Shown piece after piece: positions 26,196 to 36,880 of a stretch of 64,000 nt of DNA; position 1 is the stretch's first letter, and each line of letters opens with the position of its first letter. The translations under genes were made by a program, and so were the position numbers. Source of the stretch: an uncultured Eubacteriales bacterium (GTDB taxonomy: Bacteria > Bacillota > Clostridia > Lachnospirales > Bianqueaceae); the NCBI GenBank assembly GCA_900315265.1, contig OMYN01000010.1, positions 1-64,000 of the forward strand. Reading direction: 5' to 3'. A model generated the notes under the pieces. The model did not search any database. It saw only the letters and a program-made list of their open reading frames with translations, and was not told where the DNA came from.

Positions 26196-26224
26196 TTGAC
26201 AATCTACGGCCTTAATGTTACAAT
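26196..26224 (+). promoter_or_regulatory. Promoter of the T-box-pheST unit
   Basis: TTGACA, a 17-base spacer and TACAAT, placed just after the tyrS stop. Confidence 0.88.
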
Positions 26225-26230
26225 TCTTTA

Positions 26231-26512
26231 TGTTTGACAGCGATAAAAGCAATGAAATCGGCACAGTAGATGCACGCGCGGGCATACAGAGAGTCGGGAC
26301 CACAGGCTGAAAGTTCCGGCCGTAAGGCGGGCATTCGAAATTTCACCGGTCAAGCTGCCCTTAGAAGGGGCTGGGCGCCATCCCATTATGAATGGCAGTG
26401 AGGAAAAACAAAGACAAGGCTGTAAAATTTGATAGCCGGTCTTTGGTTTTCGAAACATGGTGGTACCACGGTAACAAACCCGTCCAATGTAACAGTTGGA
26501 CGGGTATTTTTA
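26231..26512 (+). promoter_or_regulatory. T-box riboswitch (Phe) controlling pheST
   Basis: A leader of about 280 bases with the T-box core TGGTGGTACCACGG (26458-26471), which binds the uncharged tRNA acceptor end. The terminator at 26477-26512 (CCCGTCCAA / TTGGACGGG then TATTTTT) competes with an antiterminator formed by the T-box. The stem I region contains CAGAGAG and GGCTGAAAG elements. The specifier is most likely TTC (Phe) at 26342-26344, followed by A as usual. Uncharged tRNA-Phe should allow read-through into pheS. Confidence 0.93.
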
Positions 26513-26530
26513 ATGTAAGGAGATATAGTC

Positions 26531-27559
26531 GTGAGCGAAAAAATCGACGAGCTGAAACAAACCTTTCAGGAAGATATGGACAAGGCTCAGAACACAGAGG
26601 ATCTGGAAAATATCCGGGTCAAGTATCTGGGAAAGAAAGGCACCATTACCGAATTGCTGAAGGGCATGCGCAATATGCAGGGTGACGAGCGTAAAGAAGC
26701 CGGCAAACGCATCAACCTTCTGAAGGCTCAGGTATCCGAGAGTATCCAGGAAAGAGGAAAGCAGATCCAGAAGGAAATGGAAAAGCGCCTGCTGATGGCA
26801 GACCGGCGCGTGGATATCAGCCTTCCGGCGGGTAACAATATCGGCAGCCTTCATCCTATTACCATCGTACAAAGAGAACTGGAAGAGATCTTTTCCAGCA
26901 TGGGCTTTGCCGTCGAGGATTATAACGAAGTCGTTACGGAATACCAGAACTTTGAGGCGGTCAATGTCCCTAAAAACCATCCGGCCCGCGACATGCAGGA
27001 TACTTACTACCTGGATAACGGCGAACTGTTAAAGACGCAGACCAGCGCGGCCCAGAACTACATCCTGAGAAAATACGGGGCACCCTGCCGTGCCATTTTC
27101 CCCGGACGGTGCTTCCGCAACGAGGCTCTGGACGCCAGCCATGAAAATACTTTCTTCCAGATGGAAGGTATGATGGTCGACAAAGACATTTCGGTCGCCA
27201 ACCTGATCTATTTCATGGAAACCATGCTGTCCGAGGTCTTCCAGACCGACATCACCGTCCGCCTGCGCCCCGGATTCTTCCCCTTTACCGAGCCCTCCTT
27301 CGAGCTGGATATCCATTGCCCCTTCTGCGGAGGAAAAGGATGCGCTACCTGTAAGCACGGCGGCTGGATCGAACTGTGCCCCTGCGGCATGATCCATCCC
27401 AACGTTTTGAAGATGGGCGGCGTCGACCCTGATAAGTACACCGGATTTGCCTTCGGACTGGGCCTGACCCGTCTGGCCATGATGAAGTTTGATATCAATG
27501 ATATCCGTGTCCTAAACAGCGGCAATCTGAAAGCTCTGGATCAGTTCACGATCCTGTAA
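26531..27559 (+). CDS. pheS: Phenylalanyl-tRNA synthetase alpha subunit
   Basis: 342 residues from GTG 26531 behind TAAGGAGA. Catalytic subunit of the alpha2-beta2 enzyme. An N-terminal coiled-coil (about 1-85) contacts tRNA. Class II motifs: HPARDMQDTYYL region, motif 2 GRCFRNEALDASH ... FFQMEG, and motif 3 GFAFGLGLTRLAMMKF. A Cys-rich insert (CPFCGGKGCATCKHGGW) is a more Cys-rich version of the usual PheS segment and could bind a metal. Under T-box control. Confidence 0.97.
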   Translation: MSEKIDELKQTFQEDMDKAQNTEDLENIRVKYLGKKGTITELLKGMRNMQGDERKEAGKRINLLKAQVSESIQERGKQIQKEMEKRLLMADRRVDISLPAGNNIGSLHPITIVQRELEEIFSSMGFAVEDYNEVVTEYQNFEAVNVPKNHPARDMQDTYYLDNGELLKTQTSAAQNYILRKYGAPCRAIFPGRCFRNEALDASHENTFFQMEGMMVDKDISVANLIYFMETMLSEVFQTDITVRLRPGFFPFTEPSFELDIHCPFCGGKGCATCKHGGWIELCPCGMIHPNVLKMGGVDPDKYTGFAFGLGLTRLAMMKFDINDIRVLNSGNLKALDQFTIL

Positions 27560-32893: not shown

Positions 32894-34582
32894 ATGAACG
32901 GTAACAACTGGTACAAGTCCATGGTCGTATACCAGATCTGGTGCCGCAGTTTCTGCGACGGAAACGGCGACGGGATCGGCGATCTGTGGGGCGTGCTCAG
33001 CAAGCTTGACTATATCAAGAGCCTTGGCGCCGACGCCATCTGGTTCTCTCCCATTTATCCTTCGCCCAACGCCGACTATGGATACGACATCTCCGATTAC
33101 ATGAATATCCATCCGGATTTCGGCAATCTTGGCATCTTTAAGGAAGTCCTGGACGGTGCTCACAAAAGAGGCATGAAAGTCTTTATGGACCTGGTCGTCA
33201 ACCATACTTCCGACGAACACAAGTGGTTCATCGAAAGCAAAAAAGGCGATGACAATCCCTATCATGATTACTATTACTGGCGCAAGGGCAAGGTCGTCGA
33301 CGGAAAACGGGTACCTCCCAACAACTGGACGAGCCTGTTCGAAGGCGGCGCCTGGGAGTATGACGAGGGCCTGGACGAGTATTATCTGCATGTTTTTGCT
33401 AAAAAACAGCCTGATCTGAACATGGCTAATCCCAAAGTCCGCGAGGAAGTAAAAAAGATCCTGAAATTCTGGCTGGATATGGGGGTCGACGGCTTCCGCG
33501 AGGACGTTATCACCTTTATCGATAAAGCCGAAGGGCTGCCGGACGACTATCCGGTACGTGACCGCGGCACCGGTGCCAGATATTACGTGGATCGTCCCAA
33601 AGTCCATCAGTATCTGAAAGAGTTCCGCGATGATGTGCTTAGCCATTATGACTGCTATACCATCGGAGAAGCTCCCGGGACCAGCCCGGAAGGATGCCTG
33701 CGCTATACGGCGGAGGGACCGGATCATGTACTGGATGAGATGATCAGCTTCGAGCCCATGGACGCGGACGGCGATTCTCTGACCGGCCTGCCCAAGAAGT
33801 TCGATCTGGTTCAGATGAAGACTGCTTTCACCAATTGGCAGAATGTCCTGGCCGCAGGAAAGGCGTGGAACTCCCTCTACATCGAGAACCATGATCATCC
33901 CAGGATCATCAGCCGCTACGGGTCTGAAAAATACTGGAAGGAGTCCGGCAAGATGCTGGCAGCCATGTATATGCTGCAAAGAGGTACTCCTTTCGTATAT
34001 CAGGGTCAGGAGCTGGGCATGATGAATCTGAGACTGGACAGTGTCGATAAATATATCGATATCGCCTCCAAGAACAATGCCCGCATCTACAGCAAGACCA
34101 TGAGCAAGGAAGAGGTCCTTAAAGCCATCCAGGCTTCCACCCGTGACAGCGCCCGCACTCCCGTACAGTGGAGCAGCGACGAAAACGCCGGCTTTACTAC
34201 CGGGAAACCGTGGTTCTATGTCAATCCCAACTATACGACGGTCAATGAGGCCGATGAGGATAAGGATCCGGATTCCATCCTTAATTTCTACCGTCAGCTG
34301 ATCAAATACCGCAAGGAAAGCCCTGTCGCTGTCTGGGGTGATTTCAAGGAATTCTATCCTGATGACACCAATTTCTACGTATATCAGCGCACCTATGAAG
34401 GCAAACGCCTGCTGGTGATCTGCTGCTTCAGCGGCCAGCCCCTTACCTTTACTGCTCCGGAGGGCTATGACCTGTCTAAAGGAAAGCTGGCTGTCACCAA
34501 CTATCCGACTGAAAGTGCCAAAATCGACGGCAGCACCTTTACTACCCGTCCTTACGAACTGCGCGTGTACGAGTTCGACTGA
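32894..34582 (+). CDS. GH13 alpha-glucosidase (oligo-1,6-glucosidase type)
   Basis: 562 residues, no signal peptide, so it acts on imported oligosaccharides. GH13 subfamily 31 pattern: WYKSMVVYQIWCRSFCD, DLVVNHTSDEHKWF, GVDGFREDVITF with the nucleophile Asp near 198, YTIGEAPG with the acid/base Glu near 255, and ENHDHPRIISRYG with the third acid. C-terminal beta domain from about 470. Oligo-1,6-glucosidase or alpha-glucosidase is most likely; trehalose-6-phosphate hydrolase is an alternative. No transporter or regulator gene is beside it. Expression should fall when preferred sugars are present, from the cre site. Confidence 0.9.
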   Translation: MNGNNWYKSMVVYQIWCRSFCDGNGDGIGDLWGVLSKLDYIKSLGADAIWFSPIYPSPNADYGYDISDYMNIHPDFGNLGIFKEVLDGAHKRGMKVFMDLVVNHTSDEHKWFIESKKGDDNPYHDYYYWRKGKVVDGKRVPPNNWTSLFEGGAWEYDEGLDEYYLHVFAKKQPDLNMANPKVREEVKKILKFWLDMGVDGFREDVITFIDKAEGLPDDYPVRDRGTGARYYVDRPKVHQYLKEFRDDVLSHYDCYTIGEAPGTSPEGCLRYTAEGPDHVLDEMISFEPMDADGDSLTGLPKKFDLVQMKTAFTNWQNVLAAGKAWNSLYIENHDHPRIISRYGSEKYWKESGKMLAAMYMLQRGTPFVYQGQELGMMNLRLDSVDKYIDIASKNNARIYSKTMSKEEVLKAIQASTRDSARTPVQWSSDENAGFTTGKPWFYVNPNYTTVNEADEDKDPDSILNFYRQLIKYRKESPVAVWGDFKEFYPDDTNFYVYQRTYEGKRLLVICCFSGQPLTFTAPEGYDLSKGKLAVTNYPTESAKIDGSTFTTRPYELRVYEFD

Positions 34583-34651
34583 TCGTTCGGGACCGCCCCG
34601 AAAGAGGATTGACTGGAAAGTTGCCTTGGCGCAGCCCGCAGGCGGACGGTA

Positions 34652-34883
34652 GGCGGATAAAATACCCTAAAAGGGCTATTTTATCCGCCAAAATCAACTT
34701 ATAAAACCTGACGAAGGCGGATAAAATTCCGTAAACTTCTCCTTTTTATCCGCCTAAGTAGGCCTTAGAACTGGTCAAATTGGCGGATATATTCGCGGGA
34801 TCCAGCTTATTTATCCGCCTGGGCGTTTTGAAAACACTTCAAACTGGCGGATATATTCCGGAAAATCCGCCTTTTTATCCGCC
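34652..34883. repeat. Array of four 38-39-base hairpin units at 64-66-base spacing
   Basis: Units at 34652-34689, 34716-34754, 34782-34819 and 34846-34883. Each begins GGCGGATA and ends TATCCGCC, so every unit is an inverted repeat with arms of 8-13 bases and a variable middle. The first unit has a near-perfect 16-pair stem (inner CCC/GGG). Gaps are 26, 27 and 26 bases and are weakly alike (each has an AAAAC/GAAC-like then TCAAA-like stretch), so the full 65-base unit is a degraded tandem repeat. No open reading frame crosses it. It fills the space between the glucosidase and ohrR. Function unknown. Confidence 0.93.
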
Positions 34884-34997
34884 GCTGGTACAGTCAGCTG
34901 CCGGTACAGCCCAACCCAGCCCAACCGAAAAGAAAGAAAAGAAAGACCTTTTTTGAGAATCCGCTCCAATATTTGCCCAAATATTTAATAAAAGGTG

Positions 34998-35026
34998 TTG
35001 ACATACGCAATTAAATAGCATACAAT
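34998..35026 (+). promoter_or_regulatory. Promoter of ohrR-trxA-trxB
   Basis: Consensus TTGACA, a 17-base spacer and TACAAT, about 70 bases before ohrR. Confidence 0.9.
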
Positions 35027-35035
35027 ATAATTGTA
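35021..35035 (+). promoter_or_regulatory. OhrR-type operator over the -10 element
   Basis: Perfect palindrome TACAATATAATTGTA. Its half-site TACAAT/ATTGTA matches the AT-rich inverted repeat bound by Bacillus OhrR. It covers the -10, so the MarR-type protein coded next is expected to repress its own operon. Confidence 0.75.
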
Positions 35036-35093
35036 AAAAATAAAAACGGTTGACGAAAAGACAACAAGTCAACAAGAAAGGAGGCAGCATCGA

Positions 35094-35549
35094 ATGGATA
35101 GTCAGGAAACGGAGTGGGATTGTCTGAAGCTGAGCCGTCAGCTATGTTTCCCACTGTATGTCTGCTCAAAAGAGATCACCCGGCGCTATAAGCCTTACCT
35201 GGACCAGATCGGGCTGACTTACACCCAGTACATAACCATGCTGGTCCTGTGGGAACACCCTCAGAACGCTGTCAATGTCACTGAGCTTGGCAAAAGTCTT
35301 TATCTTGATTCGGGCACCCTGACACCGCTTTTAAAAAAGCTGGAAGCAAAAGGCCTGATCACGCGGCACCGCGATCAAAGCGATGAGCGGAGCGTACTGG
35401 TCAGCGTTACGCAAAAGGGAATGGACCTGCGCGAAAAAGCGGTCTCCGTACCGGCCAGGATGAGCGCCTGCGTCGACCTGACAGAAGATGAGGTCCGGCA
35501 GCTGCTGACTCTTTTACAGAAAGTCATCCATCACGTAGAACGATCGTAA
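35094..35549 (+). CDS. ohrR: OhrR-type MarR regulator (peroxide/thiol sensor)
   Basis: 151 residues. MarR-family winged helix; the segment LKLSRQLCFPLYVCSKEITRRY closely follows OhrR proteins, where the conserved Cys (here Cys18) is oxidised by organic peroxides. A second Cys at 126 (MSACVDL) sits where two-cysteine OhrR proteins have their disulfide partner; Cys10 and Cys24 are extra. DNA-binding helix SGTLTPLLKKLEAKGLI and wing DQSDERSVLVSVT are intact. Ribosome site AAAGGAGG. Directly upstream of trxA and trxB, with a palindrome over the promoter. No ohr peroxidase gene is seen in the window. Confidence 0.88.
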   Translation: MDSQETEWDCLKLSRQLCFPLYVCSKEITRRYKPYLDQIGLTYTQYITMLVLWEHPQNAVNVTELGKSLYLDSGTLTPLLKKLEAKGLITRHRDQSDERSVLVSVTQKGMDLREKAVSVPARMSACVDLTEDEVRQLLTLLQKVIHHVERS

Positions 35550-35605
35550 TTACACTCTATCACACATTTATCACACTTTAAAACACATCAAGGAGGATTA
35601 TCATC

Positions 35606-35917
35606 ATGGCAGTTATCCAGGCAAATGAAGCTACTTTCAAAAACGAAGTATTGAACGCACAAGGCACCGTTCTGGTCGATTTCTGGGCAGACTGGTGCGG
35701 CCCCTGCAGAATGCTCAGCCCTATGGTAGACCGTGTCGCATCTCGCGTGGAAAACGCCAAGGTCGTTAAGGTCAATGTAGACGACAACATGGCCCTGGCT
35801 CAGCAGTACGGCATCGTCAATATCCCCTGCCTGATCGTTTTCAAAGACGGTAAAGAGGTAAATCGCTCCGTAGGCGTGATCCCCGAAAAATCCATCGAAG
35901 AACTGCTGAAGGCATAA
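35606..35917 (+). CDS. trxA: Thioredoxin
   Basis: 103 residues. General dithiol reductant. Active site WADWCGPCRM with Cys31 and Cys34; cis-Pro in NIPCLIVFKDG (an extra Cys precedes the Leu there). Good ribosome site AAGGAGGA. Between ohrR and its own reductase gene, so reduction capacity is likely induced by peroxide or thiol stress. Confidence 0.97.
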   Translation: MAVIQANEATFKNEVLNAQGTVLVDFWADWCGPCRMLSPMVDRVASRVENAKVVKVNVDDNMALAQQYGIVNIPCLIVFKDGKEVNRSVGVIPEKSIEELLKA

Positions 35918-35947
35918 GGCTTCGCAATAAGCAGCAAGGAGTCTACT

Positions 35948-36880
35948 ATGTACGATATTGTCATCATCGGAGCAGGCACCGCCGGCATGAGCGCCGCTAT
36001 CTATGCGCAGCGGGGCGGAAAAAAGTCCCTGATGCTGGAGAAGCTTACCTACGGCGGACAGATCATCAACACCCCCGACATCGAAAATTACCCCGGCCTG
36101 ATGCATGTCAGCGGCTTCGATTTTGCCGGAAAACTCTTCGAACAGGCCAGCCAGCTGGGAGCGTCCTATGAAGCCGCCTCGGTACTGGGCATCGAAGACA
36201 AGGGAGATGTCAAAGTCGTTCATACCGATAACGGGGATTATCAGGCCGGAGCTGTGATCATTGCGGCCGGAGCAAAAAACCGGCCCCTCGCTGCGGAAGG
36301 AACGCCGCTGTTTGATAAAGAAAAGTCCCTGACGGGCCGGGGCGTCAGCTACTGCGCGACCTGCGACGGCATGTTCTACCGCAACAAAGTGACGGCTGTG
36401 GTAGGCGGAGGCAATACGGCCCTGGACGATGCCGTTTTTCTGGCAGACATTTGTCAGAAAGTCTATGTCATCCACAGAAGAGACCAATTCCGCGGAAGCC
36501 GGACGACACTGGATAAACTGAAAGAAAAACCAAACGTCGAGTTCATTCTGAATTCCGAAGTGACGGATCTTCTGACGGATGAGCAGGCCCAAACCTTGGA
36601 CCGGGTAGAGACCTGCGATAAGGTAACCGGGCAGAAAAGACAGATCCCGGTAAACGGCCTGTTCGTAGCTGTAGGGCAGGCTCCCTGTAACCAGCCTTTC
36701 GCCGATGTCGTTGACTTAGACGAAAAGGGATACATCATTGCCGGTGAAGATACCCATACCAGGACGGCGGGTATTTTTGCGGCAGGCGACTGCCGTACCA
36801 AGACCCTGCGCCAGCTGAGCACGGCTGCCGCGGACGGGGCCCAGGCAGCGACCGAAGCGATCCGTTATCTGAATACTTGA
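35948..36880 (+). CDS. trxB: Thioredoxin reductase
   Basis: 310 residues, low-molecular-weight type. Seen: FAD loop IIGAGTAGMSAAIYAQR, redox pair CATC (GVSYCATCDGMFY, near 136-139), NAD(P)H loop VVGGGNTALDDAVFL followed by VIHRRDQFRG, and C-terminal GIFAAGDCRTKTLRQLSTAAADGAQA. Lone HRRDxFR pattern fits NADPH use. Last gene of the ohrR operon, with a terminator seven bases after the stop. Confidence 0.96.
   Translation: MYDIVIIGAGTAGMSAAIYAQRGGKKSLMLEKLTYGGQIINTPDIENYPGLMHVSGFDFAGKLFEQASQLGASYEAASVLGIEDKGDVKVVHTDNGDYQAGAVIIAAGAKNRPLAAEGTPLFDKEKSLTGRGVSYCATCDGMFYRNKVTAVVGGGNTALDDAVFLADICQKVYVIHRRDQFRGSRTTLDKLKEKPNVEFILNSEVTDLLTDEQAQTLDRVETCDKVTGQKRQIPVNGLFVAVGQAPCNQPFADVVDLDEKGYIIAGEDTHTRTAGIFAAGDCRTKTLRQLSTAAADGAQAATEAIRYLNT

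Follow-up and report, generated by a model that had tools for sequence, protein, structure and literature searches.

Between the 3' end of a GH13 gene and an ohrR/marR-like gene lies an array of four regularly spaced inverted repeats, which raises the question of what kind of element this is and how its hairpins are kept. The window, the whole 64,000-nt stretch of DNA that was analysed, is contig 14 of a 2.16-Mb genome assembled in 43 contigs. The array occupies positions 34652-34883, with hairpin starts 64, 66 and 64 nt apart and linkers of 26, 27 and 26 nt. The stop codon of the GH13 gene (32894-34582) lies 69 nt before the array, and the ohrR/marR-like gene (35094-35549) begins about 210 nt past it. 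The outer arms, GGCGGATA and TATCCGCC, are exact in all eight arms of the four hairpins, with additional inward CCC/GGG pairing in unit 1. The pattern GGCGGATA-N10-35-TATCCGCC has four matches in the window; 100 dinucleotide shuffles yielded 0.00. The sequence-only reading had thus described the hairpins, their arms, the inner pairing of unit 1 and the neighbouring genes correctly and at their exact positions, and by the shuffles none of these hairpins is expected by chance. The features of the locus are as follows.

34652..34883, + strand: complete four-hairpin element, 232 nt, with length, order and linkers as in seven other complete genome copies
34652..34689, + strand: hairpin 1 (U1), 38 nt, GGCGGATAAAATACCC..GGGC..TTTTATCCGCC
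34690..34715: linker 1, 26 nt, the same length in 8 of 8 copies; the equivalent linker elsewhere holds IS3-like insertions
34716..34754, + strand: hairpin 2 (U2), 39 nt, the same length in 8 of 8 copies
34755..34781: linker 2, 27 nt, 26-27 nt across copies; elsewhere two IS256-like insertions at one common point
34782..34819, + strand: hairpin 3 (U3), 38 nt
34820..34845: linker 3, 26 nt, resembling across copies the reverse complement of linker 1
34846..34883, + strand: hairpin 4 (U4), 38 nt, the same length in 8 of 8 copies
34678..34705, - strand: putative weak promoter-like match pointing outward (TTTATA-16-TAAAAT), recurring at this position in 6 of 8 copies
34998..35026, + strand: probable ohrR promoter, TTGACA-17-TACAAT, outside the element and downstream of the array

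The array is not confined to this locus. A search of the genome and its relatives for the arm pattern, as the earlier reading had proposed, recovered 22 exact hairpins of the form GGCGGATA-N8-38-TATCCGCC in the whole genome, compared with 0 for the reversed control. A covariance model brought the number to 38 hairpins at about 14 genome places; built from these 38, it recovers all of them, the extra matches being chance matches and mixed-arm hairpins adjoining the arrays, with GGCGGATA on one side and TATGCC on the other. The elements number about 14 in total, of which six are partial or cut, and contig ends bearing insertion sequence (IS) ends interrupt many of the arrays. Each of the eight complete elements has four hairpins in 231-232 nt; four of the eight were obtained by rejoining the flanks across IS insertions to show the empty site. 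Among the options of the sequence-only reading, a mobile palindromic element agrees with these dispersed copies.

The geometry of the copies is far more constant than their sequence. Four parts have an invariant length in all eight complete elements, namely hairpins U1 and U4 (38 nt each), U2 (39 nt) and linker 1 (26 nt), and linkers within the genome's hairpin arrays are 26 nt almost without exception. Pairwise identity among the complete copies averages 63% (48-85%); two copies differ on average by about 84 substitutions and by only 1.5 indel events, and the copies are old and diverged. Linker 3 matches the reverse complement of linker 1 at 45% identity across copies, compared with 27% in direct orientation, so that the whole element is roughly palindromic. 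One copy (contigs 13 and 38) carries a second arm type, GGCATA/TATGCC, partly mixed with the first, with its geometry unchanged. The hairpins retain their position-specific identity from copy to copy; the repeated unit is therefore the whole four-hairpin element, and the local tandem copying of a 65-base unit that had been proposed is not borne out. In two otherwise similar elements, L019 and L024, the centre of U2 is inverted (ACCACGAAATCCATGGT versus ACCATGGATTTCGTGGT), as if the hairpin had been flipped.

Pairing within the hairpins is maintained through this divergence. The covariation score of the 38 hairpins is 0.206, compared with 0.117 in shuffles, and was reached by none of 500 shuffles; the score of the eight complete elements was likewise reached by none of 500. 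When the partner is slid by one column, pairing among the 38 hairpins falls from 83% to 43-51%. Stem mismatches are mostly A/A and T/T. The covariance model and covariation test suggested earlier thus yielded covarying stems, and the proposed drift under pairing pressure is upheld both here and in an element from a congener, described below.

Insertion sequences mark the same units. The IS3-like ends TGAACTGTACCCCGTGTCA and TAAACTGTACCCCGTAGAG, classed by their sequence and a 3-nt duplication, occur at eight junctions, seven of them in or beside arrays. Of the five insertion sites of this IS, four are in linkers and the other lies some 20 nt away from an element. Four linker sites among five would arise by chance with a probability of about 1e-7, even if insertion were restricted to an intergenic share assumed to be only 12% of the genome. 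Two of three IS256-like insertions lie in linker 2, at an identical point in two elements. The duplicated letters at the four rejoined insertions are TTTGCAG, TAAAAC, TAG and ATA, and rejoining the flanks on these letters restores normal linkers. The IS3-like insertions rejoin, with their 3-nt duplications, to exact 26-nt linkers, which indicates that each IS entered an intact element. Insertion sequences of the IS3 and IS256 families are known to target REPs (PMC1525189).

The hairpin family with GGCGGATA arms is missing from six sequenced congeners and from nearly all genomes in an even draw of 295 from the order. The same arms occur in a genome of another family (G234), in six 37-nt hairpins joined by five linkers of exactly 26 nt. 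Several further matches were rejected as copies of the element: those in G005 and G006 are both dnaJ terminators, and those in G198 (L089, L091, L092) and G213 (L090) belong to a GGCGGATAATATCCGCC inverted repeat, GTAGGGGCGGATAATATCCGCC..GGCGGATATTATCCGCCCCTAC, which is 48 nt long, dispersed and of no relation to the array. The dnaJ terminators of two congeners (L016 and L017, near 1501-1540) have arms GGCGGATAAA/TTTATCCGCC as in the array, plus a T-tract, and are a possible origin of the hairpin arms. Ruminococcaceae bacterium RUG13427 was not counted as a further carrier, having only the array within a 2717-nt block identical to the window. This block, window positions 33371-36087 with the array included, is identical to L055 (CADAMO010000008.1, from RUG13427, another species); at its flanks identity drops immediately to 30-55% (ungapped), and either the block recombined recently or the metagenome assembly is chimeric there. 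The element has no match in viral, phage or plasmid collections.

Sister arrays with other arms were found by a scan that required at least three tandem hairpins sharing arms of any sequence; it gave 0 matches in shuffles and covered partial congener samples of 100-320 kb each, and in 462 kb of the own genome the window array was the only match. A TCGAGGA six-hairpin element is present at two places in G003, with 12 of 12 hairpins 36 nt long and spacings of about 49, 50, 62, 74 and 62. G005 contains a TAGCAAG element of five 37-nt hairpins and a TGTATAA element with hairpins of 37-38 nt. A homologous element with TCATGAA or TAATGAA arms adjoins one TCGAGGA element in G003, and the two G003 six-hairpin elements can be aligned over about 335 nt, end to end and with no internal indel. 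Within this pair, arm letters are changed at 46 of 84 positions and other letters at 90 of 256, and 97.6% of stem cells still pair, with 20 of 42 pairs changed on both sides compared with 6.6 in shuffles. Identical substitutions recur in hairpins on both arms, and the arms of all six hairpins have switched together. Local gene conversion of the 7-nt arms alone would be odd, since the loops and linkers keep their position-specific identity. A further dispersed multi-hairpin element of G003, with TGTCACAG arms (L144 14207, L150 9560, L148 and L147), has nested stems of 24-60 nt; it was left out of the class, as it has stems of 24-60 nt as well as 36-41 nt.

The element lacks the tags of classical REPs. 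GTAG or CTAC is absent from the 6-nt flanks of the 38 hairpins, in which CGTC occurs once and GACG three times; the sole GTAG (window 34649-34652) spans the edge of unit 1. No RAYT was found beside the hairpins: the genome's six Y1 matches comprise IS200/IS605-type matches, fragments and a lone 241-aa protein that NCBIfam REP_Tyr_transpos does not match. No hairpin arrays lie within several kilobases of this lone Y1 gene or its homologues in nine genomes. The lone Y1-domain protein (L040 / L209, C28 6587-7309) is encoded close to ftsY; its diverged homologues (25-34%) are mostly single, occur family-wide and have no adjoining repeats. The window itself holds an IS200/IS605-type Y1 transposase gene (1387-1746), adjoined on the other strand by a TnpB-like frame, and a stretch at about 26200-26600 with the sequence features of a T-box leader (GGTGGTACCACG..), ahead of a pheS-like reading frame.

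Compared with defined classes, the element consists of multi-copy palindromic units in composite arrays between genes, as in a broadly REP/BIME-like family, and it conserves hairpin capacity and spacer length with compensatory changes, as REPINs do. MITEs, derivatives of DD(E/D) transposons, are defined by terminal inverted repeats plus a target-site duplication; here the outer arms are inverted repeats, and inspection of the flanks by eye showed neither a constant duplication nor a target-site duplication made by the element. Three other assignments were rejected. BOX elements are boxA-(boxB)n-boxC with variable n, whereas the complete copies here all have four hairpins with shared arms. A CRISPR array, defined by near-identical repeats, unique spacers and cas genes, does not fit hairpin middles that differ by unit and linkers that are common to loci at homologous positions. 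Integron attC sites have RYYYAAC/GTTRRRY ends, whereas these arms end in GGCGGATA/TATCCGCC and no cassettes lie between the hairpins. No named repeat family of such a kind in this bacterial group was found in the literature.

Four other explanations were weighed. The array could be a structured non-coding RNA or a multi-hairpin transcript end, acting as tandem bidirectional terminators or 3'-end protectors and spread by ordinary duplication. Judged by open reading frames alone, the elements whose neighbours can be called on both sides lie between convergent genes in five cases, between co-directional genes in two and between divergent ones in none; the predicted RNA fold of the array is much more stable than that of shuffles (z = -7.0), and a true terminator with the array's arms, CGGCGGATAAATTC..GTTTATCCGCCGCTTTTT, follows dnaJ in two congeners. 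However, T-tracts past the stems are weak or missing, terminator scans give values near the shuffle level, and terminators have no need of exact linker lengths. G.U pairs in the stems are no more frequent than A.C mismatches (7 versus 11), and the stems thus show no preference for RNA of one strand. Rfam has no match either: the best in the array scores 20.8 bits against a cut-off of 44, and arrays at other loci give none. This explanation, which includes the structured RNA of the earlier reading, is unlikely. Alternatively, the hairpins could be protein-binding dyads in double-stranded DNA, for a nucleoid, condensin or partition protein or gyrase, with protein-protein contacts setting the spacing. 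The constant 64-66-bp period, the identity of arms within each element and the intergenic placement are consistent with this, but the half-sites are matched by compensatory changes within each hairpin, a feature unnecessary for a double-stranded site, linker length varies from family to family within the genus (in G003, from about 13 to 38 nt), and the family is missing from all congeners. Such a dyad array is improbable.

A promoter with an overlapping operator in each unit, controlling ohrR or neighbours, had been suggested for the window array. Promoter-like words are indeed in excess (1.4 per element versus 0.4 in shuffles), and one site recurs at a fixed place: in 6 of 8 copies, the right arm of hairpin 1 carries its -10 word, TAAAAT, on the minus strand, a recurrence that may be due to common descent. 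The remaining words are at no fixed place, so that a promoter in every unit does not stand. The copies also adjoin genes that are unrelated to one another, for the most part at their 3' ends, the best match to an ohrR promoter is found only downstream of the array, and sister families include arms without TAWAAT words, leaving this explanation very improbable. Template switching is known to perfect hairpins, and matched arms could result from mutation bias alone at quasi-palindromes, with neither selection nor a factor. The predominance of A/A and T/T mismatches would agree with such a process. It leaves unexplained the constant linker and loop lengths, and the same arm change in six hairpins of one element whose loops and linkers keep their identity; we give it little credence.

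The array is instead probably a single copy of a composite palindromic repeat that is dispersed and specific to the species, REP/BIME-like but untagged, non-autonomously mobile, folded and read by its arms. Discrete full-length copies lie outside genes with length, order and pairing conserved, the linkers harbour insertion sequences, and sister families exist. The element appears to be mobile in the non-autonomous manner of REP, BIME and BOX repeats, and to fold as DNA whose arms are recognised by a trans factor. A trans-acting protein may copy it in the form of a folded single strand or a cruciform; this putative protein would recognise the stem arms and keep the element as a folding unit. 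An arm-specific protein would account for arms that are alike within an element and switch together, and for relatives with the same architecture but other arms. Counting against this reading are the age and divergence of the copies, their low number, the lack of a target-site duplication visible by eye, and a lone Y1 gene that, like its homologues, has no hairpin arrays nearby. The hairpin arrays in relatives, mostly with differing stems, suggest that these small, folded and probably mobile DNA elements form a family that evolves rapidly. More tentatively, they may form an undescribed class of multi-hairpin mobile DNA in Bacillota, with hairpins of constant length (36-39 nt), fixed architecture and linkers, and arms that switch together and serve as the address for a diverging trans factor. 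At this locus, the element probably does little more than sit between the GH13 3' end and the ohrR promoter, perhaps helping transcript ending or protection.

Among known systems, REP/BIME repeats, as portrayed in PMC3733652, share with the element palindromes of 20-40 nt, composite arrays, a location at gene ends, use as IS targets and families that differ between species. The convergent and co-directional flanks match the placement of REPs, which passages of the same article locate downstream of genes and between convergent genes. Unlike REP/BIME, the element has no GTAG or CGTC tag, no adjoining RAYT, a fixed number of four hairpins and exact 26-nt linkers, and its copy number of only about 14 is far below that of most REP families. 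REPINs retain their spacer length and, through compensatory changes, the capacity to form hairpins, and resemble the element in their conserved ends, variable middle of fixed length and within-genome families with different ends (PMC3116915); in the element, however, each 38-nt unit is one hairpin, with four per element, no RAYT is present and the copies are far more diverged. BOX of Streptococcus (PMC3049150) is likewise a composite of dispersed hairpins in Bacillota, presumed non-autonomous and with no clear transposase, but has distinct boxA and boxC ends and a variable number of boxB units, whereas the element has shared arms and exactly four hairpins. The nearest existing category is that of the untagged REP-like palindromes of M. 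tuberculosis, D. radiodurans, Bordetella, Brucella and cyanobacteria, which, in the passages of PMC3733652 that treat them, also have no terminal motif or known transposase; those passages mention no fixed multi-hairpin architecture, and pose the relatedness and binding proteins of such palindromes as a question. To this question of REP biology, raised by untagged palindromes that have no known transposase, the family brings clean material: its complete copies do not vary in length, its stems covary strongly, the genus holds sister families with other arms, and in one case the arms of all hairpins switched at once. With such material, what reads the arms becomes directly testable.
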